A stretch of 64,000 bases of DNA from Gammaproteobacteria bacterium (GTDB lineage Bacteria > Pseudomonadota > Gammaproteobacteria > Pseudomonadales > Pseudohongiellaceae): assembly GCA_030831165.1 (NCBI GenBank), contig JAURLP010000011.1:62001-126000 (forward strand), written 5' to 3'. Below the pieces are notes generated by a model. The model was not told the DNA's origin. It was given only the letters and a program-made list of their open reading frames with translations, and searched no databases. Every line of letters begins with the position of its first letter. Positions within the stretch are counted from its first letter, which is position 1. The position numbers and the translations under genes were made by a program. Positions 35,382-46,662 of the stretch are shown here, piece after piece.

Positions 35382-36812
35382 CTACTGCTTATCTTTTTGT
35401 ATTTTTTCTACTATACCCGTGGTTGAACAGTTATCCAAAAAAGCGAGCACTTTAATTTCCCCACCATACGCTTGAACAATATTTGCCCCTACCACTTCAC
35501 TGATTTCATAATCTCCACCTTTAACTAATACATCAGGCTTAAACTCTTCCAATAACGGGATCGGAGTATCTTCATCAAAGCTTACTACCCAATCAACGGC
35601 CTCTAGACCTGCGACTACTGCCATCCGGCGCTCTATTGGATTAATTGGACGTCCTTCTCCTTTTAGACGCGTCACGGATGCGTCATCATTTAAGGCAACA
35701 ATCAAGCGATCACCCTGCCCTCTGGCATCCTGTAAATAACCAACATGGCCAGCATGAATAATATCGAAGCAGCCATTAGTAAAAACAACTTTCTCGCCAT
35801 TGGCTTTGGCATCAGCAACCACTTGAGCAAGCTGCGCTCTACTCATCACTCCTCGTCCGGAATCACTGTCTTTTTGCACTTCACGCCGAAGTTCCGGACC
35901 ACTCACAGCAACAGTTCCGACTTTTGAAACAGCAATCCCGGCAGCAATATTTGCCAGAGCCACAGCTTCTGGCAGGGACTTGCCTGCACCAAGTGATGCT
36001 CCTAATACTGAAATTACCGTATCTCCTGCCCCAGTCACATCGAAGACGTCTCTGCTTCGAGCCGGGAAATGCAACTCTGTTTCTCCGGGACGTATGAGGC
36101 TCATTCCATGTTCACCTCGAGTAACCAGTAATGCCTCCAGCTCCAGATCATTTATTAAAACCTTTGCTTTGTTTACCAAGTCCTCTTCTGTACTACATTG
36201 ACCAGCAACTACCTCGAATTCATGTAAATTAGGTGTGAGCAGAGTAGCACCCTTATATTTGGTAAAATCATCACCCTTTGGATCAACCAGAATAGGCGCC
36301 CCCACGGCCTTCACCAGGCTAATGAAATTTTCGATGTTATTTAAAGAGCCCTTTTTGTAATCAGAAAATATGACAAGATCAACATTGTTTAACAAGCCGC
36401 TTATCCTGCTGCTTAAACTTAATGAATCAATACTACTAAAGTTTTCTTCGAAATCCAGTCTGATCAATTGCTGATGATGACTTAATACACGAAGTTTCGT
36501 AATGGTTGGGCTGTACTCAGAAAAGTGAAAGTCACATTCGATGCCTGCTGCTGACAGGGCCTGTATCAGAGATTGGCCTGCTGCATCATTTCCGATGATA
36601 CCGGTAAGGTTACAGGCAGCGCCAAGAGCGGCTATATTCAAGGCAACATTAGCTGCTCCGCCAGGGCTGTCTTCTATATTATTTATTTTGACCACAGGAA
36701 CCGGCGCTTCTGGCGAAATTCTTGTTGTATCACCATGCCAATATCTGTCGAGCATAACATCGCCAACGACTAAAATTCGGGTTGTATCAAATCTTGGAAT
36801 ATCGAGCTTCAT
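35382..36812 (-). CDS. hldE: Bifunctional D-glycero-beta-D-manno-heptose-7-phosphate kinase/1-phosphate adenylyltransferase
   Basis: Two domains: a PfkB-type kinase (residues about 1-320; EDSPGGAANVALNIAALG and the catalytic DVTGAGDTVIS) and a nucleotidyltransferase (about 345-476; VFTNGCFDIIHAGHVGYL with the HxGH motif, and RPINPIERR). It makes ADP-heptose for the LPS inner core, which the WaaC and WaaF enzymes encoded further on would use. Length 476 is standard. Divergent from the acyltransferase gene across 98 bases. Confidence 0.95.
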   Translation of the reverse strand: MKLDIPRFDTTRILVVGDVMLDRYWHGDTTRISPEAPVPVVKINNIEDSPGGAANVALNIAALGAACNLTGIIGNDAAGQSLIQALSAAGIECDFHFSEYSPTITKLRVLSHHQQLIRLDFEENFSSIDSLSLSSRISGLLNNVDLVIFSDYKKGSLNNIENFISLVKAVGAPILVDPKGDDFTKYKGATLLTPNLHEFEVVAGQCSTEEDLVNKAKVLINDLELEALLVTRGEHGMSLIRPGETELHFPARSRDVFDVTGAGDTVISVLGASLGAGKSLPEAVALANIAAGIAVSKVGTVAVSGPELRREVQKDSDSGRGVMSRAQLAQVVADAKANGEKVVFTNGCFDIIHAGHVGYLQDARGQGDRLIVALNDDASVTRLKGEGRPINPIERRMAVVAGLEAVDWVVSFDEDTPIPLLEEFKPDVLVKGGDYEISEVVGANIVQAYGGEIKVLAFLDNCSTTGIVEKIQKDKQ

Positions 36813-36910: not shown

Positions 36911-38470
36911 GTGTCTCAACAACAAACCCCTCAATTAAGCTCTTTTATCGCTCCGAAATATTGGCCAACCTGGATAGGTGTTGGTCTGTTGACCTTGATA
37001 GCCTTTTTACCCTTTCGCTTGCGTCTTTTGGGAGGGGCCATGCTAGGGAAAATGCTTTTTATCTTCGCTAACGAGCGGCGTTATATCGTTGCAACCAATA
37101 TCAAACTTTGCTTTCCGGAGTTAAGCAAAACAGAACAAGAACAATTGATAAAAGATTGCTTTATTGAAAATGGTAGAGGCCTTATAGACACGATGGTTGG
37201 TTGGTTTAGAAATCCGAAGCAATTTCAAACTATGTTGGATATCAAAAATGTTGAGGCTCTAGATAATGCTCTCGCTAAAGGCAAAGGTGTAGTACTTCTG
37301 GGTGCTCATTACACCACCTTGGACTTTACAGCCAATCTGGTTTCTCTACAAATTCCTTTTGCCGTTACCTACCGTCCACATAAAAATGCTCTGTTTGATG
37401 CCTTAATGCTTCGTGGGCGATTAAAAAATACTAATGGTGTGTTTGACCGCTATGACATAAGAGGAACTCTTCGACATTTAAAAAAGAATAATATTATCTG
37501 GTATGCCCCTGATCAGGACTATGGAAGCAATCATTCAGTTTTTGCTCCTTTTTTTGGGAACCCTGCGGCAACCATAACGGCGGCTAGCCGTTTAGCCAAG
37601 TTTTATAACTCACCGGTTTTATTAGCACGCCATCATCGCAATGACATCACTGGCAAATATGAAATTGAATTTTATCCATTCCCGGAAGATTACCCTGGCA
37701 GCGACGATGTAGCAGATGCTGCTTATATGAACCAGCAACTGGAAAAAGCAATTCGCTTATATCCATCTCAATACATGTGGACGCACAAACGTTTCAAAAC
37801 TCAAGCAGATGGCAAACCAGCCAGTCCCTATATCGCTATCAAAACGCCAGTGAATAAGATGGATAGGCAGCATTTTAATACCATGATAGAAGGCTCAAAG
37901 ATTATTGAAGAGCAGCATTCTAAAAATTTAACCCGAATTTTGCATAACAATGCTCTATTTAGAATATTGCCCTTATCAAGCTCTAAATTTTTTGAAAAAC
38001 CACCAATGCAGTTATTTGACACTAACGCTCGTTTACTTCGCCTGGCGGGAGTCAATTCCATCACTATTGATAATATTTTTGAAATAAAAAGTGCAGATTT
38101 CATTGCAGCAACTTATTTCCCCTTATACGGAGAAAGCCTTGCAAAAATTCAACATTCCGAATTGCCGGTCGATCAGCTTGCTGATTTTTTTGCAAAGGTT
38201 CACCAGCTAGGGTTTTTCTTTACTCAGGTAAAACCTTCTAAAATTTATTATGCGAACGGTGAATTTTCTATTGCAAACCCGGAAGATATCAAAGTCTTCC
38301 CGACTTCAATTTGTTATGCAGATCGTTTTTTAAATATTCAAAGCCTTTTGAATAAACTCGAGTTACCAGAAAATCAGCGAACCCAATTTGCTGAGGCATA
38401 TATGGCTGCTACAGGTCTAGAACGGGTCTCGGAATTTACTCAACTTTTCTCAAAATTGCTTTTTCGCTGA
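36911..38470 (+). CDS. LpxL-type lipid A acyltransferase fused to a degenerate LPS-kinase-like domain
   Basis: Residues 1-300 are a late lipid A acyltransferase: membrane helix (IGVGLLTLIAFLPF), HX4D motif GAHYTTLDF (H133, D138), APDQDYG and PSQYMWTHKRFK. The family usually ends there at about 305; this protein continues to 519. Residues about 305-519 resemble WaaP/InaA-type LPS kinases: FFAKVHQLGFFFTQVKPSKIYY parallels LH..GI....H..N.L, EDIKVFP parallels the metal strand, and ADRFLNIQSLL parallels RLRNLRHL. The catalytic Asp/Asn are replaced, so it is probably not an active kinase. Start is GTG. Overlaps the convergent glycosyltransferase by 31 bases. Confidence 0.75.
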   Translation: MSQQQTPQLSSFIAPKYWPTWIGVGLLTLIAFLPFRLRLLGGAMLGKMLFIFANERRYIVATNIKLCFPELSKTEQEQLIKDCFIENGRGLIDTMVGWFRNPKQFQTMLDIKNVEALDNALAKGKGVVLLGAHYTTLDFTANLVSLQIPFAVTYRPHKNALFDALMLRGRLKNTNGVFDRYDIRGTLRHLKKNNIIWYAPDQDYGSNHSVFAPFFGNPAATITAASRLAKFYNSPVLLARHHRNDITGKYEIEFYPFPEDYPGSDDVADAAYMNQQLEKAIRLYPSQYMWTHKRFKTQADGKPASPYIAIKTPVNKMDRQHFNTMIEGSKIIEEQHSKNLTRILHNNALFRILPLSSSKFFEKPPMQLFDTNARLLRLAGVNSITIDNIFEIKSADFIAATYFPLYGESLAKIQHSELPVDQLADFFAKVHQLGFFFTQVKPSKIYYANGEFSIANPEDIKVFPTSICYADRFLNIQSLLNKLELPENQRTQFAEAYMAATGLERVSEFTQLFSKLLFR

Positions 38471-39228
38471 GCTCTTTTATTCATATCCCACAGATTTGCA
38501 TATTTCATGTAATTGTAAAAACCTACATTGACACTGGTCAGTACGCCGCCAAAGCCATCCAGAAAATGCCCCTTAAACAAGTAGGTGCGAATAAAAGTAA
38601 GCGGGAAAATTAACAACACGACTAATATGTTTGTCCTATCACCTTTATTGAATTTATCCTGAGCTTTGAGTTTTGCATAAAACACGGTTTTTTCAATACG
38701 CTGCGAATAGCTCAAATTTTCGTGATGTAATATTTCTGCTTCTGTCTCTTTAACTGGACCGCTTATGCTTATGCTCTCGTGTACCTGTCTGCTTTCATAA
38801 TGACCGCTATCTTTCTTAAAGAGTCGAATTAATTTTTCTGTCTTACCAAAACATCTTGGTTGTCGTCCCCACCTAAGCAAGATCCTATTGCAGCGCAATG
38901 CCACAAAATGTTCCTGCTTTATAAAGCTATCCAGCTCATTTATAAAAGTATCACTTAGGGTTTCATCGGCATCCAGATTGAGCACCCATGGGAAACGGCA
39001 TAAAGACAAGGCATGAGCTTTTTGTTCACTAAACCCTAGCCATTCATTAAAACTCACTTTGGTATTAGAATAGGATGCCGCTAACGCCAGAGTACGGTCA
39101 GTACTGCCACTGTCTACAATGATAACTTCAGCAAAATTTTTCAGATTATTCAGTAAGCTGACGATATTCTCTTCTTCATTCTTCGTGATTACATAGACAC
39201 TTACTGGAATCTGCTTTTGCTTAGTCAT
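38440..39228 (-). CDS. Glycosyltransferase family 2 (LPS core WaaE/LgtF-like)
   Basis: GT-A fold enzyme of 262 residues: SVYVITKNEEENI, VIIVDSGSTDRTL, WVLNLDADETLS (DxD), then GHYESRQVHESI and a C-terminal hydrophobic anchor (LVVLLIFPLTFIRTYLF). This pattern matches the beta-glucosyltransferases that decorate the inner-core heptose. Surrounding heptosyltransferases support an LPS role. The sugar added is inference. Confidence 0.82.
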   Translation of the reverse strand: MTKQKQIPVSVYVITKNEEENIVSLLNNLKNFAEVIIVDSGSTDRTLALAASYSNTKVSFNEWLGFSEQKAHALSLCRFPWVLNLDADETLSDTFINELDSFIKQEHFVALRCNRILLRWGRQPRCFGKTEKLIRLFKKDSGHYESRQVHESISISGPVKETEAEILHHENLSYSQRIEKTVFYAKLKAQDKFNKGDRTNILVVLLIFPLTFIRTYLFKGHFLDGFGGVLTSVNVGFYNYMKYANLWDMNKRAQRKSNFEKS

Positions 39229-39318
39229 TTAAAAAACCCATTATTAACCTGCCTTCATTATACATGGACTTGTCAGTTCACTCAGGTAGAATTCCAGTCA
39301 GAATTATAAACTGGACTT

Positions 39319-40434
39319 ATGGTTTTGACTGGAGCCCCTGTAGCAAGCATCCCGACAGACTATCAGCGCATAGTCTTGCTTAATCCCACAAGATATTTGG
39401 GAAACCTGGTGATCGCTGGCGGCATCATTCAGGACTTTCTTAAATTTTGCCAAAAAAACAACATCCAATTCCTTTTAGTTGTTGATGCAGCTTATCAGGA
39501 GCTCTTGCAGGATACTTTCCCTTCTGAAACATTATTGTTTTACCCTCGACAGCAAATCAAGCAAGCTACATTATTTAAAAAATTATCCCTTTATCTTAAA
39601 TGCTTATTTTCGATCCGGCGCTTTAAAGCTGACATTGGATTTAATATTGAAGAAGACAGCGTCTCTCACCGCTTGACTCAACTTTCCGGAGCGAAGTTTA
39701 AACTAGGCAGCAATTTAGCCAGAAATAAATACGGCTACGACAATGTATTGGATATTAATTATGCGAAAAGAGACCCCTTACATAAGCATCGCTGGTATGG
39801 ATTTGCCGAAGTATTTAGCCTCCTTGGCCTACAGACACTACAACCCTCTTATCTTAAAATAACAATAAAAAGTATTTCTGCTCCGCTTCGTAATAAACTC
39901 AAAGGCCTTGGCTTAGATCTCCAGGCTCCTTTAATTGCCATTCATGCAAGTGCAGCTAAGGACTACAAAAAGTGGCCAGCTTCCTGTTTTGCCGAATTAA
40001 TTTTCATGCTCACCAACCAGGGGTATAAAATAGTTTTAATTGGTGCTGGTCATGCTGACCAACAGGCTAATAGCGAGATTCTTGCCGCTATTAAAGATAA
40101 TTACAGGGATGAGAATACGGAAGCAAATTGTAGAGACTTGTGTAACCAACTTTCACTGTATGAATTAGCCTGTTTACTAACACAAGTAAAGGCTATGGTT
40201 GGAAATGATAGCGGCCCTTTTCATTTGGCAGCAGCCTTGGGTGTTGCAGGTTGCGTGATATTTGGACCCACTGATGTCGAATTATGGCGACCGCTTTCAG
40301 GCAATTCAATCGTTCTTAAAGGTGATCAGGCTTGTGCTCCGGAATGCACTAAAACAGGCTGCATTTATAATAATCGTTGCTTGAAATCCATCAAACCCCT
40401 GGATGTTTTTGAAAAACTACAAAGCTTATTGTGA
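39319..40434 (+). CDS. Glycosyltransferase family 9 (heptosyltransferase-like)
   Basis: GT-B fold of the ADP-heptose transferase family: VLLNPTRYLGNLVIAGGIIQDF (acceptor side), LIAIHASAAKDYKKWPA (donor phosphate binding), MVGNDSGPFHLAAALGV and VIFGPTDVELWRPL. It lacks the exact WaaC/WaaF signatures and is probably the third heptosyltransferase (WaaQ-like) or a diverged copy. It is the only + strand gene in this part and overlaps the convergent GT4 gene by 9 bases. Confidence 0.78.
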   Translation: MVLTGAPVASIPTDYQRIVLLNPTRYLGNLVIAGGIIQDFLKFCQKNNIQFLLVVDAAYQELLQDTFPSETLLFYPRQQIKQATLFKKLSLYLKCLFSIRRFKADIGFNIEEDSVSHRLTQLSGAKFKLGSNLARNKYGYDNVLDINYAKRDPLHKHRWYGFAEVFSLLGLQTLQPSYLKITIKSISAPLRNKLKGLGLDLQAPLIAIHASAAKDYKKWPASCFAELIFMLTNQGYKIVLIGAGHADQQANSEILAAIKDNYRDENTEANCRDLCNQLSLYELACLLTQVKAMVGNDSGPFHLAAALGVAGCVIFGPTDVELWRPLSGNSIVLKGDQACAPECTKTGCIYNNRCLKSIKPLDVFEKLQSLL

Positions 40435-41553
40435 ATAGGATTGAGCGGCCTGAACCAGTAGATTAACAACTGTTTGCGGCATTGAATAAAGATCTTGTTC
40501 CTGCCCATACGCGATTCCATTTGCCTTCCAGGTACTTCTATTATCACTTAGCAACATTGTCTCTAATTGCTTATTGAAATATTCCTGTTCAAATGGCATA
40601 GGGCAAACTATCCCTGCTTGAGCTTTTTCAACATGAAAGGCATAACCACAGCTAGATGTCGTTAACACAGGCAAACCAGCAACTATTGCTTCTAGTATCA
40701 CCATCCCGGCACTTTCTTTTAATGATGGATGAATTAATAAGTCTGCCGCTAGTAAAAGCTCGGGGACCTGACTACTGCCATTAATAATTTTAAAATGCCT
40801 TGCCACGCCTAAACGTTGTGCTTCTTTTATATATTTATCAGGTGCATCTTTGCCAACAACGAAAAACCAAGTTCTCTTTCGTAACTCAAGTGGCAACGCA
40901 GCAAACGCCAATAATGACCTATTCAGGCCTTTGGTTTTGAAAGATGAGCCTATTTGAAGTAAAAGCAGATCATCCGGAAGGATCGATAATTCATGCCGCA
41001 TCTGCCTGCGCTTTATCGGCGCATCAATTCCCGCCATTCTGTCTTTTTTTATACCCGGCGGTAAAAGTATTAGACGATCACTGTCTGTCTGATAATGTCT
41101 GGTAAATTCTTCCTTCTGTTGTGGCGTTAATAATAAACTCACTGTTTCCTGATCTTTACCAAAGACAGCCTCTTCAAATTCCAAATATTGTTTAGCTCTT
41201 GACGTCAGTCGATATAGAAACGATCTTTCATTTCTAGCTTTCTCAGCAAAGCAATAATCTGCGGCATAGTAATAATCAAGCCCAGGCATCTTATTAAAAC
41301 CTAGGACTAAATCATATTTATCAAGGGTTTTCTCTAACATTTTTTCAACAAAATATTCGCGTTTTGCTGTTTTGGCATAACCCTGGCAGGGCAAAATAAC
41401 TATATTTGCATATAGCGGTTTTTCACCCTCCCACTCCATGCAGAAAATTGTGACATCAATTTTTCTTGCTCTGCATGCTTGTAATATTTTAAGTAAATCT
41501 TGCTGCAGACCTCCGAAAGGAAAATATGAATATAAAACAATAGCAAATTTCAT
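40426..41553 (-). CDS. waaG: LPS core glycosyltransferase WaaG-like (GT4)
   Basis: GT-B retaining transferase: MKFAIVLYSYFPFGGLQQDLLKI is the classic WaaG opening; LLQIGSSFKTKGLNRSL, FVVGKDAPDKY, HPSLKESAGMVILEAIVAGLPVLT (EX7E) follow. WaaG adds the first outer-core glucose. The ATG at 41553 is chosen because the sequence there matches WaaG starts and it lies 7 bases after the waaC stop; an in-frame ATG at 41589 inside waaC is unlikely. Confidence 0.85.
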   Translation of the reverse strand: MKFAIVLYSYFPFGGLQQDLLKILQACRARKIDVTIFCMEWEGEKPLYANIVILPCQGYAKTAKREYFVEKMLEKTLDKYDLVLGFNKMPGLDYYYAADYCFAEKARNERSFLYRLTSRAKQYLEFEEAVFGKDQETVSLLLTPQQKEEFTRHYQTDSDRLILLPPGIKKDRMAGIDAPIKRRQMRHELSILPDDLLLLQIGSSFKTKGLNRSLLAFAALPLELRKRTWFFVVGKDAPDKYIKEAQRLGVARHFKIINGSSQVPELLLAADLLIHPSLKESAGMVILEAIVAGLPVLTTSSCGYAFHVEKAQAGIVCPMPFEQEYFNKQLETMLLSDNRSTWKANGIAYGQEQDLYSMPQTVVNLLVQAAQSYSQ

Positions 41554-41560
41554 ATTTGCC

Positions 41561-42622
41561 TCAGTGCTGCTGCTCGGCAAGTTCAACAATATTCTGCCAA
41601 ACCTTGCTGGGGGGCAATGTTGAAAAACAGGGAGGCTTTAGTGACATAACCGCCTGCTTGTCACTATCGCTCAAACCGTCACCACGATAATGACATGTTT
41701 TGTTGAAGCAGGGGCTGCACGCAAAGGAAGTCTTTAGGTGGACCTGATTTTTCCCATAAGTCCCTGTTTTCTCAGGATCACTAGCGCCATAAAGCGCAAT
41801 TGTTGGCCGATCTAATGCTGCCGCCAAGTGGGCTAATCCAGTATCTACGGCAATAACAATCTCTGTTTGTAAAAATTTGGAGGCTATCTCTGTTAGTGTA
41901 AGTCTGCTCATGACCTTGGCGCCAGGGATAGCATCAGCAATACGCTTGGCTCGGCGCTGTTCTTCTTCATTGCCCCATAATAAATTAATACTGTAACTAT
42001 TTTTCATTGCAATTTTACCAAGCTCTATCCAGTATTTTTCTGGCCAGAGTTTCGTTTCCCATGTCGTTCCATGTAAAAAGTACAAAGACTTAGCTTTGGG
42101 CTCTTTATTTAAATTAAATAGCTTAAGTGATAAGCCATAATTTACATTTACATGCTCGATATTATACCCAAGAGCCTCAGCAAATAACTTTCTGGTTCTT
42201 TCAACAGCGTGTTGTTGCCAGGATACATCGTAACTTTGATCATAAAACCACGTTGCAAGCTTTTCTCTGGCACTATTTTTTGCCAGACCAACAACTTTTC
42301 CCCTAGCTAATGAACTAATAAAACCACTTTTTAATAAGCCCTGAGCATCAATCACCAAATCATATTGAGTGCTCTTTAATGCCTTCTTAAAAGCTTTATA
42401 CTCTTTACCAATTAACGTTTTAAAAATATTTTTTTTCCAGCGTCTTAACGCTACCGGTATTACTTTATTAACTGAAGAATGCCAGGCTGGAATCTCTGTA
42501 AATGCTTCTTCGGTAACCCAATCAAACTTTATTCCAGGGATTGCTTGTTCGGCATCAGTTAAAGCAGGCAAGGTATGTATAACATCGCCTAAAGAAGACA
42601 GCTTAACTATTAGCACATGCAT
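41561..42622 (-). CDS. waaC: LPS heptosyltransferase I
   Basis: Adds the first heptose to Kdo. MHVLIVKLSSLGDVIHTLPALTDAEQAIP matches the WaaC start; IDAQGLLKSGFIS, HGTTWETKLWPEKYW, IAVDTGLAHLAAALDRPTIALYGASDPEKTGTYG are family signatures. The ATG at 42622 aligns with WaaC proteins; one four codons earlier (42634) overlaps the waaF stop and is also possible. It follows waaF directly and precedes waaG. Confidence 0.93.
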   Translation of the reverse strand: MHVLIVKLSSLGDVIHTLPALTDAEQAIPGIKFDWVTEEAFTEIPAWHSSVNKVIPVALRRWKKNIFKTLIGKEYKAFKKALKSTQYDLVIDAQGLLKSGFISSLARGKVVGLAKNSAREKLATWFYDQSYDVSWQQHAVERTRKLFAEALGYNIEHVNVNYGLSLKLFNLNKEPKAKSLYFLHGTTWETKLWPEKYWIELGKIAMKNSYSINLLWGNEEEQRRAKRIADAIPGAKVMSRLTLTEIASKFLQTEIVIAVDTGLAHLAAALDRPTIALYGASDPEKTGTYGKNQVHLKTSFACSPCFNKTCHYRGDGLSDSDKQAVMSLKPPCFSTLPPSKVWQNIVELAEQQH

Positions 42623-42623
42623 A

Positions 42624-43655
42624 CTAGACTTCATCTAGCTGTTGGTGGATTTTTCTAATTGCATCCAGCGCAGCTTTTGGTGAAAGTTGGTTTAGGCAGT
42701 CAAGATGCTCGAGCGGGCATTCTCGCTTAAAGCAGGGGCTGCATGACAGCTTTAATGTTAATATTTCAACTCTGTTGGATAAAGGCGGCGTAAACTCTGG
42801 AGATGTTGAGCCATAAAATACAACAAGCGCTTTTTTCATTGCCGCTGCAATATGCATTAATCCGGAATCATTGCTAACAACCGTATGCGCCAGACTCATC
42901 AGATCTATTGCTTCCCCTATACTGGTTAAGCCAGCCAAACTGACCATATGTTTTTTATGCTCAGGCTGAATTGTAGCAATAATATTTTGTGCCGTCTGAG
43001 CATCATTTTTTGAGCCCATTAACCAGACCTGTTTTCCCTCACTAATAAGAGCATCTGCTAATTTAGCGAAATTTGATTCAGGCCATTTTTTAGATGGGCC
43101 AAATTCAGCTCCTGGACAAAATATTATGATGTCCCGTTTGGTTTCTAGATTAAACTTTTCTTTGGTGACATTTATCTCAGCCGAAACACGTAATGCTGGC
43201 CAAAATAACGGCTTCGGCAAGGGTGAGTTTTCTGGGAATCCGAGGGCGGCAAACCTCTCAACCATCAACGGGTATTGTTGTTTATCAAGTTTGCGGCAAT
43301 CATTTAAAAGCCATGACCTGGCTTCACCTCGCCACCCGGTCCGCAATGGAATTTTTGCAAAAAATGGCACCAATGCTGATTTAAATGAATTAGGCAGCAC
43401 AATCGCTTGTTGATAAGCTTCCGACCGAAGGGATTTGCCTAATTGACGTCGCTTACCTAAGGCCAGTTTTCCGTGACCAACTGGCATGGCTATTGCCCGA
43501 TTGACTTCTGGCATTCTGTCCAGTAATTCACGCGTCCAATCAAGCGCCAGCACATCAATAACAACTTGCGGATTTCTGGCTTGCAGACATCGAAATAGGG
43601 ACTGGGCCATGACCATGTCACCAATCCAAGACGGACCGATCACTAACACTTTCAC
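42624..43655 (-). CDS. waaF: LPS heptosyltransferase II
   Basis: Adds the second heptose of the inner core. KVLVIGPSWIGDMVMAQSLFRCL, DVLALDWTRELLDRMPEV, LPNSFKSALVPFFA, RTGWRGEARSWLLND, CPGAEFGPSKKWPE and SNDSGLMHIAAAM are WaaF hallmarks. A GTG at 43655 is chosen as start because AGGGGAG lies five bases upstream (43661-43667) and the family begins there; the 17-residue extension from 43706 would cover that ribosome site. Confidence 0.94.
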   Translation of the reverse strand: MKVLVIGPSWIGDMVMAQSLFRCLQARNPQVVIDVLALDWTRELLDRMPEVNRAIAMPVGHGKLALGKRRQLGKSLRSEAYQQAIVLPNSFKSALVPFFAKIPLRTGWRGEARSWLLNDCRKLDKQQYPLMVERFAALGFPENSPLPKPLFWPALRVSAEINVTKEKFNLETKRDIIIFCPGAEFGPSKKWPESNFAKLADALISEGKQVWLMGSKNDAQTAQNIIATIQPEHKKHMVSLAGLTSIGEAIDLMSLAHTVVSNDSGLMHIAAAMKKALVVFYGSTSPEFTPPLSNRVEILTLKLSCSPCFKRECPLEHLDCLNQLSPKAALDAIRKIHQQLDEV

Positions 43656-43722
43656 CCTTGCTCCCCTGAAAAAGTGATTTGCTGCATCAAAAAACCTGTT
43701 TAACAATCAATTTCTATTAAAA

Positions 43723-45583: not shown

Positions 45584-46573
45584 TTAAGTTTTAAGGCGCT
45601 TACTCACGATTTGAATGGCTTTACTTATTTTTGGATCATTCTTTATTTCTTGTTTTAACTTACCCACAGTTGTCGAGACTGTGCCGTAACGCTTCAATCC
45701 AAAACGGGTCGCAATATCCTGCAGAGTTACTGCGGACAACTCCTGACAAAGGTACATTGATACCCAGCGCGGAACATTCTTACTACCTGGCCCGCGTGCC
45801 GAAGAATAAATACTTTTCTCACTTACTTTGAAATACCTTGAAACTTCAGTCACAACCTTTTTCATTGAGGGCCTCAAGCGAGCCAGTTTGCCTTTACCAA
45901 GACCTCTGGGCTTTGCAGCAGTATTTTTAGATTTAACGCGGTTTTTAAATTTATCATCGCCTAAAATAGAAAGCTGATTCTTACGTCCATAAAAGTGATT
46001 GAGCTCGGGAGATGTCCCCTTCGCTACAAAAGACAGATATTTGGCATAAGGCCTGGCAGCTTGATTAGCATAGGCGGTACTTAGCATCGCTAAGACATCA
46101 TTTCTTACCAGCCATTGAGGAACTTTTACTTTATTACAATATGCTCCCATACTGGACCACCCTGATTTGAGTGTCGGTTTAGTACCACCTTTAACAGCGC
46201 CTGCCAAATTATGAATATAACGGGAAACCTCGAGTAAATAAGATTTAGGCTGAACTAAAACAGCCTTATAGCGGGAATGAAAAACTGAGCCCACATCATT
46301 TTTTCGTGCTTGATAAAATTGAGTATATAAACCATTGAGCTGGCGCATAAAACGACTTAAGTTTCCTTCAGGCGTTTTAATTAATAAATGATACTCATTT
46401 CTTAATAAACTATATGCATGCACTTCCACATTAAAACGGGCGCAAGCATCGACCAACCCCGCTAAAAAACCTTCATAGAACTTGGGGCCTGGAAACAAAG
46501 TAATTCCAAGATCTGCTTTGGTGCTCACATGATAATATGCGTCTGGATATTCTATCCTGAGTGGTCTGGCCAT
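45584..46573 (-). CDS. REP-associated tyrosine transposase (RAYT/Y1) relative with altered HUH motif
   Basis: An IS200-like Y1 transposase domain opens MARPLRIEYPDAYYHV and continues LLRNEYHLLIKTPEGNLSRFMRQLNGLYTQ and LLEVSRYIHNLAGAV; the C-terminal 100 residues resemble a DnaA-like helix-turn-helix (DIATRFGLKRYGTVSTTVGKLK). The metal motif, normally NHYHLL, reads NEYHLL (E60, H62 from this start), so the first HUH histidine is lost. The candidate catalytic Tyr remains (SRYIH). ATG at 46573 follows AGGAA; a TTG at 46591 is less likely. No REP palindromes flank it. Confidence 0.8.
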   Translation of the reverse strand: MARPLRIEYPDAYYHVSTKADLGITLFPGPKFYEGFLAGLVDACARFNVEVHAYSLLRNEYHLLIKTPEGNLSRFMRQLNGLYTQFYQARKNDVGSVFHSRYKAVLVQPKSYLLEVSRYIHNLAGAVKGGTKPTLKSGWSSMGAYCNKVKVPQWLVRNDVLAMLSTAYANQAARPYAKYLSFVAKGTSPELNHFYGRKNQLSILGDDKFKNRVKSKNTAAKPRGLGKGKLARLRPSMKKVVTEVSRYFKVSEKSIYSSARGPGSKNVPRWVSMYLCQELSAVTLQDIATRFGLKRYGTVSTTVGKLKQEIKNDPKISKAIQIVSKRLKT

Positions 46574-46662
46574 ATTTTTTTCCTGTGCCAATAAGAAGCT
46601 TTAAATCTCTATGCCTTCAGAATAAACAATTTCCATCCATGTTTAAACCAGCAGAAATATCT

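Follow-up and report, generated by a model that had tools for sequence, protein, structure and literature searches.

Within the 64,000-nucleotide stretch of gammaproteobacterial DNA analysed here (the window), a single forward-strand gene (36911..38470) encodes a lipid A secondary acyltransferase of the LpxL/HtrB type that continues in frame into a kinase-fold domain of the PA4998 type, catalytically degenerate and probably a pseudokinase. A preliminary description of the locus had proposed precisely this, an LpxL enzyme joined to a dead LPS-kinase-like domain, and the proposal was upheld by profile comparison, reciprocal genome searches, the predicted fold and a residue-by-residue account of what the second domain has lost.

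The gene opens with GTG and runs for 519 codons to a TGA stop. As described before, the enzyme ends near residue 305 and the open frame runs on to 519: the acyltransferase domain covers residues 10-302 (36938..37816, forward strand), PF03279 matching residues 10-297 (Pfam, E 1.5e-69, 234.9 bits against a cut-off of 22.3) and TIGR02207 residues 10-302 (NCBIfam, 304.2 bits against 297.8). The HX4D motif lies where it had been placed, from H133 to D138 (37307..37324), and is intact in all 16 aligned fusions, and residues 10-309 of the predicted structure superimpose on LpxM (5kn7) with Z 26.5. This half is predicted to transfer an acyl chain to Kdo-lipid A and would do so in the usual way, on the cytoplasmic side of the inner membrane. 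It is followed by a linker, residues 305-318 (SPYIAIKTP..., 37823..37864), and by the kinase-fold domain, residues 319-519 (37865..38467), both on the forward strand. The long frame is not a product of chance, because the tail stayed open in none of 20,000 mononucleotide shuffles and the frame recurs in other genomes of the family (16 of 36 in one search, 20 of 137 in another). A plasmid search with the DNA of the fusion gene gave no match.

In a search of residues 305-519 against family profiles, no Pfam or NCBIfam family, PF06293 included, matched at E≤10; profile-profile comparison with hhalign, on the other hand, aligned the 16 fused tails with four free-standing LPS-locus kinases over 198 columns (probability 98.8%, E 5e-17). 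The same comparison with classical WaaP reached a probability of 74% and E 2.8e-5. The kinase outline previously recognised in the tail stands, and its assignment to the WaaP/InaA type can be refined: judged by these alignments the link to classical WaaP is only distant, and the small PA4998-type proteins are the nearest kin. On these relatives PF06293 gave 21.2 bits against the cut-off of 21.3 for one (L060) and no match for another (L059).

The free-standing relatives were found in three sets of genomes. In a first survey with the whole protein, covering 57 genomes (the window's own included, 36 of them from the same family), two other families (G036 and G042) gave tail matches in frames that stand alone, 232 and 249 amino acids long; these genes adjoin hldE, identified by blastp, and an msbA-like gene, read by eye from its translation. 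Searching back with one free-standing copy retrieved four such copies in the 57 genomes, none of them in the window's family; it also recovered fused tails from nine of the 16 fusion genomes (five of the window's genus, g1, four of genus g2 and none of genus g8), with E between 5e-11 and 2e-4. With the tail profile, free-standing frames appeared in 12 of 274 genomes of the class at E 4e-11 or better, six further genomes giving weaker matches (6e-7 to 7e-4), and 64 of 390 genomes of the order matched, four of these through the family's own fusions. A 398-amino-acid frame in L093, seen as a translation, has the look of an upstream extension; its genome is GC-rich. Judged by locus and size, the free-standing copies are probably orthologues of PA4998. 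The copies in G036 and G042 stand in an LPS context that can be set beside Pseudomonas, for which a published table gives the order hldE, msbA, PA4998, waaL and lists PA4998 as "toluene tolerance protein" and "kinase", function unknown (PMC8005017).

A structure prediction of the C-terminal part had been suggested as a check, and the kinase fold did appear. AlphaFold2 modelled the full protein with a mean pLDDT of 89.9 and pTM of 0.86, and the tail by itself with pLDDT 91.6 and pTM 0.87; the pTM of the full model suggests that its two domains pack in a defined way. The tail model matched PRPK/Bud32 with Z 16.0 (192 residues, rmsd 3.5), WaaP (6dfl) with Z 14.7 (197 residues, rmsd 4.1; Z 15.0 in another comparison) and aminoglycoside phosphotransferases with Z of about 12-13.5, and the Foldseek results agreed. 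We are confident that the tail is predicted to adopt a two-lobed kinase fold; this comparison settles kinase-likeness only, and the subfamily assignment rests on the profile alignments. The kinase relation to solved structures is visible only by fold comparison, since the fused profile found nothing useful among the sequences of solved structures (best E 1.3). The tail model leans on family evidence because the AlphaFold2 alignments contained free-standing relatives (that of the full model also one unfused LpxL); the row L003/L034, which has an ambiguous base, was excluded from them, and L032 stood in for the near-identical L004.

The motifs that the preliminary description had pointed out in the tail are all present. 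What remains of the catalytic loop and the DFG region occupies residues 431-463 (38201..38299, forward strand), with H431 and G434 kept, and ADRFLNIQSLL, likened to RLRNLRHL, lies at residues 470-480 (38318..38350, forward strand) and corresponds to RxRNLxHL in the free-standing family, its R472 being found in all 16 fusions and in all 13 aligned relatives. The catalytic Asp and Asn, reported as gone, are replaced in the alignment by Q439 (HRD Asp) and K444 (loop Asn), and the loss extends to the ATP-binding VAIK lysine (R351) and the DFG Asp (N456). A domain in which the VAIK Lys, HRD Asp and DFG Asp are all absent has the residues of a pseudokinase and is probably inactive.

Part of this decay is older than the fusion. 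In the 13 free-standing relatives the Lys (K56 of L060), the Asn (N157), the DFG Asp (D170) and D173 are invariant, and the position of the HRD Asp holds Ser in 11, Ala in one and Gly in one; the FRS of the family also pairs with the kinase HQD in an alignment with a lanthionine synthetase kinase domain. Since the HRD Asp is already absent from all 13 of these relatives, catalytic decay began before the fusion, and by this alignment what the fused lineage itself lost is confined to the Lys, the Asn and the DFG Asp. The losses differ among genera: the 16 fusions keep the Lys in one case, the Asn in four and the DFG Asp in ten, all three being gone from the five fusions of g1, with a mixed set retained in g2 and g8 (four g8 fusions have both Asn and DFG Asp). 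The scaffold positions G407, H431, G434, R472 and Y497 are common to all 29 rows, fusions and relatives alike. A second set, P306, Y307 and T312 in the linker together with D370 and P457, is fixed in 16 of 16 fusions and not in the relatives, which suggests selection after the fusion. The free-standing PA4998-type proteins themselves (for example L060:4934-5629 and L059:5625-6287) would on these residues make up an LPS core-locus family of either atypical kinases or pseudokinases.

A search for the same fusion in related genomes, also suggested beforehand, showed that it is widespread in three genera. The two-domain frame was present in 16 of the 36 family genomes of the first survey (g1 5/5, g2 5/5, g8 6/6); in 19 of the remaining 20 the match was to an unfused LpxL and stopped near query residue 303-326, and the last (G010) gave only the match of a more distant acyltransferase (27%). 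When the tail profile was run on 137 family genomes, 20 carried the fusion, in frames of 508-583 amino acids and all in the same three genera; counted on the 49 genomes named in the results, the fusion is found in 5/5 genomes of g1, 6/6 of g2 and 9/11 of g8 (20/22 overall). The two exceptions in g8 are G330, a genome 73% complete with a 100-residue piece, and G333, 77% complete and with no match; apart from that piece no truncated form was seen in the listed genomes of the fused genera. Eight other family matches were weak (E 9e-7 to 4e-4, in frames of 482-524 amino acids). Three named records, an uncultured Pseudomonadales MAG, UBA5109 and a MAG titled SAR86 cluster NORP41, also contain the fusion; by identity and position they resemble g1 genomes over again, and they were not added to the counts. 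In a tree of 54 LpxL domains (LG+G4), the 16 fused rows formed one side of a branch with support 100/100, adjoining a set of 14 unfused rows, a named Pseudohongiella among them; the program printed long-branch warnings for this tree. This topology places a single fusion event in an ancestor shared by three related genera of Pseudohongiellaceae-like bacteria. Each of the 38 unfused LpxL rows stops 0-27 residues after the domain, L037 lying at a contig end.

The gene stands in an LPS core neighbourhood. Its divergent neighbour is hldE (35382..36812, reverse strand; blastp and locus comparison), and a convergent gene for a family 2 glycosyltransferase (38440..39228, reverse strand; Pfam) overlaps its last 31 bases; heptosyltransferases, a WaaG-like glycosyltransferase and a Kdo transferase lie nearby, and msbA was absent among the ten window proteins scanned. 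The divergent hldE is found beside lpxL in fused loci (L062, L063, L064) as well as in unfused ones (L065, L066), with one more gene between the two in L065. That the fusion joined two neighbouring genes, as had been proposed, is plausible insofar as hldE adjoins lpxL here and the free-standing kinase elsewhere; an unfused lpxL beside a free-standing kinase, however, was found in none of the family loci scanned, where the matches near unfused lpxL were weak and fell in double-kinase-like frames of 484-499 amino acids or in frames of 248-273. A frame of 493 amino acids with two kinase-like domains (L065:1724-3205), presumably PA5006-like, lies behind waaP in unfused relatives. In g2 there is a 507-residue multi-membrane protein that by eye resembles a glycosyltransferase (L062:7887-9410); its frame begins eight bases ahead of the point where the fusion gene ends. 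Frames like it lie close to the fusion in several loci of g2 and g8. Elsewhere in the window, a frame of 335 amino acids (45584-46591) combines a Y1 transposase (PF01797) with a DnaA C-terminal helix-turn-helix domain (PF08299).

The genera also differ in the classical heptose kinase. A strong PF06293 match (E of about 1e-40 or better) was present in all five g2 genomes, four of six g8 genomes and none of the five g1 genomes, three of which had no match at all and two only at E 2e-4 and 6e-4; window positions 38440-43706 likewise showed no strong match. The window's genus seems, from these searches, to have lost the classical heptose kinase together with the last catalytic residues of the fused domain, and inner-core phosphorylation may have been lost or replaced there. 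The two losses are not strictly coupled, since G011 and G016, the g8 genomes lacking a strong match, retain the Asn and the DFG Asp in the fused domain.

The explanation that we consider best, and probable rather than certain, is that a Kdo-lipid A acyltransferase of the LpxL/HtrB type was joined once to a small LPS kinase domain of the PA4998 type that was already incomplete. The fused domain would then have decayed further, losing phosphate transfer, and would now serve without catalysis as a docking module for the growing core sugar or for a partner in core assembly. Through this docking, acylation would be directed to, or gated by, the lipid A intermediate bearing the correct Kdo or core. 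The role is what we infer from homology, the fold, the kept scaffold, the single origin, constraint within genera and the LPS-core neighbourhood, as well as from a second fusion of the same domain to another LPS membrane enzyme, treated below. The estimates of constraint, crude because synonymous sites were saturated in many pairs (pS up to 0.92), gave pN/pS of 0.11-0.25 for the enzyme and 0.18-0.40 for the tail in g1, 0.17-0.24 and 0.16-0.41 in g2, and 0.18-0.39 and 0.31-0.72 in g8. Both domains were below 1 in 35 of 35 within-genus pairs, and the tail evolved faster than the enzyme in 34 of the 35; by these ratios purifying selection acts on both domains, more weakly on the kinase-like one.

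That the tail evolves faster, reaching a pN/pS of 0.72 in one genus, counts against docking and gating and also fits weak constraint. This is the ground of the main rival, in which the tail is a passive relic without a function of its own, kept since a misfolded tail would spoil an essential acyltransferase. The complete loss of the motif residues in g1, and their mixed state in g2 and g8, points the same way. The relic reading has nevertheless to accommodate a tail retained in nearly all listed genomes of the three genera, pN/pS below 1 in every pair, and residues newly fixed in all 16 fusions, linker included. Moreover the enzyme as such needs no tail, as the unfused rows of the tree show, yet the only truncated form seen in the fused genera is the piece in G330. 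We regard the relic as a serious but rather unlikely account.

The match to WaaP suggested a further possibility, that the tail recruits the acyl donor for LpxL, which takes its acyl chain from acyl-ACP. Donor docking is attractive because WaaP depends on this same molecule. WaaP is described as binding acyl-ACP tightly and needing it bound (PMC6147952), and the structure of its complex with ACP (6dfl) is one of the tail's best structural matches. The arginine patch of WaaP is, however, not kept: R221, R222, K224, R226 and R229 correspond in the window protein to E, N, R, Q and E (one of five basic), positions assigned by aligning the sequences on a conserved Tyr rather than by superposing structures. 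Zero to three of the five positions are basic in the fusions and zero to two in the free-standing relatives, and the end part of the domain in the window is not strongly basic (7 basic and 9 acidic residues). As the basic positions are missing, we rank docking of acyl-ACP through this patch low and consider it improbable.

HRD-less kinases that still use nucleotide, such as the SelO-type AMPylators, raise the question of an active transferase working by an atypical route. The invariant Lys, Asn and DFG Asp of the 13 free-standing relatives, and the four g8 fusions that keep Asn and DFG Asp, would suit such an enzyme. All five fusions of the window's genus, the window protein included, have however lost these residues (to R, K and N), and the Lys is gone from 15 of the 16 fusions, so that activity of this kind appears highly improbable. 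A sequencing or assembly error that removed a stop between two genes has practically no probability, given the same frame in 16/36 and 20/137 family genomes, their monophyly and the conserved linker.

The docking and gating explanation draws further support from a parallel case. Six long frames from the search of the order were opened, and in four of them, from genomes G549, G610, G648 and G685 of family f21 (a Pseudomonas-type family, from our reading of the order sample), the same kinase-type domain follows an O-antigen ligase in frame (L191:1671-3659, L192:1937-3931, L193:2036-3943 and L194:197-3130). A Pfam scan of these four gave PF04932 at E 3.9e-15 to 9.3e-13 and PF06293 at 22.8-28.0 bits, above the cut-off, and by reading their motif residues are intact except for the HRD Asp. 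Internal starts are possible in the ligase fusions because ATG codons (three of four) and GTG codons (four of four, within the listed stretch) occur at or near the junction. We presume that NCBI names such proteins "bifunctional O-antigen ligase/aminoglycoside phosphotransferase family protein"; in the sources covered by our literature search that name was not found for Pseudomonas. The other two long frames, L195 and L196, showed no partner by blastp with the window proteins. Taken together, the two kinds of fusion would allow the broader idea, which we put forward tentatively and think doubtful as it stands, that PA4998-type domains are a portable, largely non-catalytic module that reads the core, fused at least twice, to an acyltransferase here and to an O-antigen ligase in pseudomonads, so that a membrane enzyme would sense what state the inner core is in. 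The fused acyltransferase would then be a checkpoint at which a pseudokinase ties lipid A acylation to core assembly.

Acylation of lipid A and assembly of the core are usually seen as two distinct steps, one after the other. With a pseudokinase as part of the acyltransferase itself they would, if the explanation is true, be linked directly and physically. The fusion would also offer a handle on PA4998, the kinase entry of the Pseudomonas core locus, whose relatives lack the HRD Asp, are kept nonetheless and fuse with LPS enzymes. The component domains are of known kinds, and their combination is undescribed as far as our literature search reaches, nothing of the kind having been found in the sources it covered. 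Bacterial pseudokinases are, according to a 2025 review, largely unexplored by experiment (PMC12599244); the families GLW, ActPs, CP1, DYD and DLHK treated there share degenerate kinase motifs with the window tail and, unlike it, are serine-threonine-kinase families, and the outline of the review and a term search gave no mention of lipopolysaccharide, WaaP or acyltransferase.

Compared with LpxL/HtrB enzymes, the window protein is alike in domain (PF03279, TIGR02207), HX4D motif, LpxM-like fold and LPS-core locus, and differs by a second domain of 200 residues where the 38 unfused rows end within 27 residues of the first. With the PA4998-type kinases ("toluene tolerance protein", PSPTO_4985) it has in common homology over the whole domain, the scaffold residues and the absence of the HRD Asp; these kinases, in contrast, are mostly free-standing, keep Lys, Asn and DFG Asp in 13/13 where the window tail has R351, K444 and N456, and adjoin msbA and hldE, whereas the window domain is fused to lpxL with hldE adjacent. 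WaaP (PF06293; 6dfl) resembles the tail in its kinase fold (Z 14.7-15.0) and core-locus context, but the tail lacks the Pfam match, the catalytic residues and the arginine patch for acyl-ACP. A parallel in architecture is offered by the O-antigen ligase fusions (L191-L194), in which an LPS membrane enzyme likewise ends in this kinase-type domain; they differ in the partner enzyme, in motif residues intact bar the HRD Asp and in their possible internal starts.
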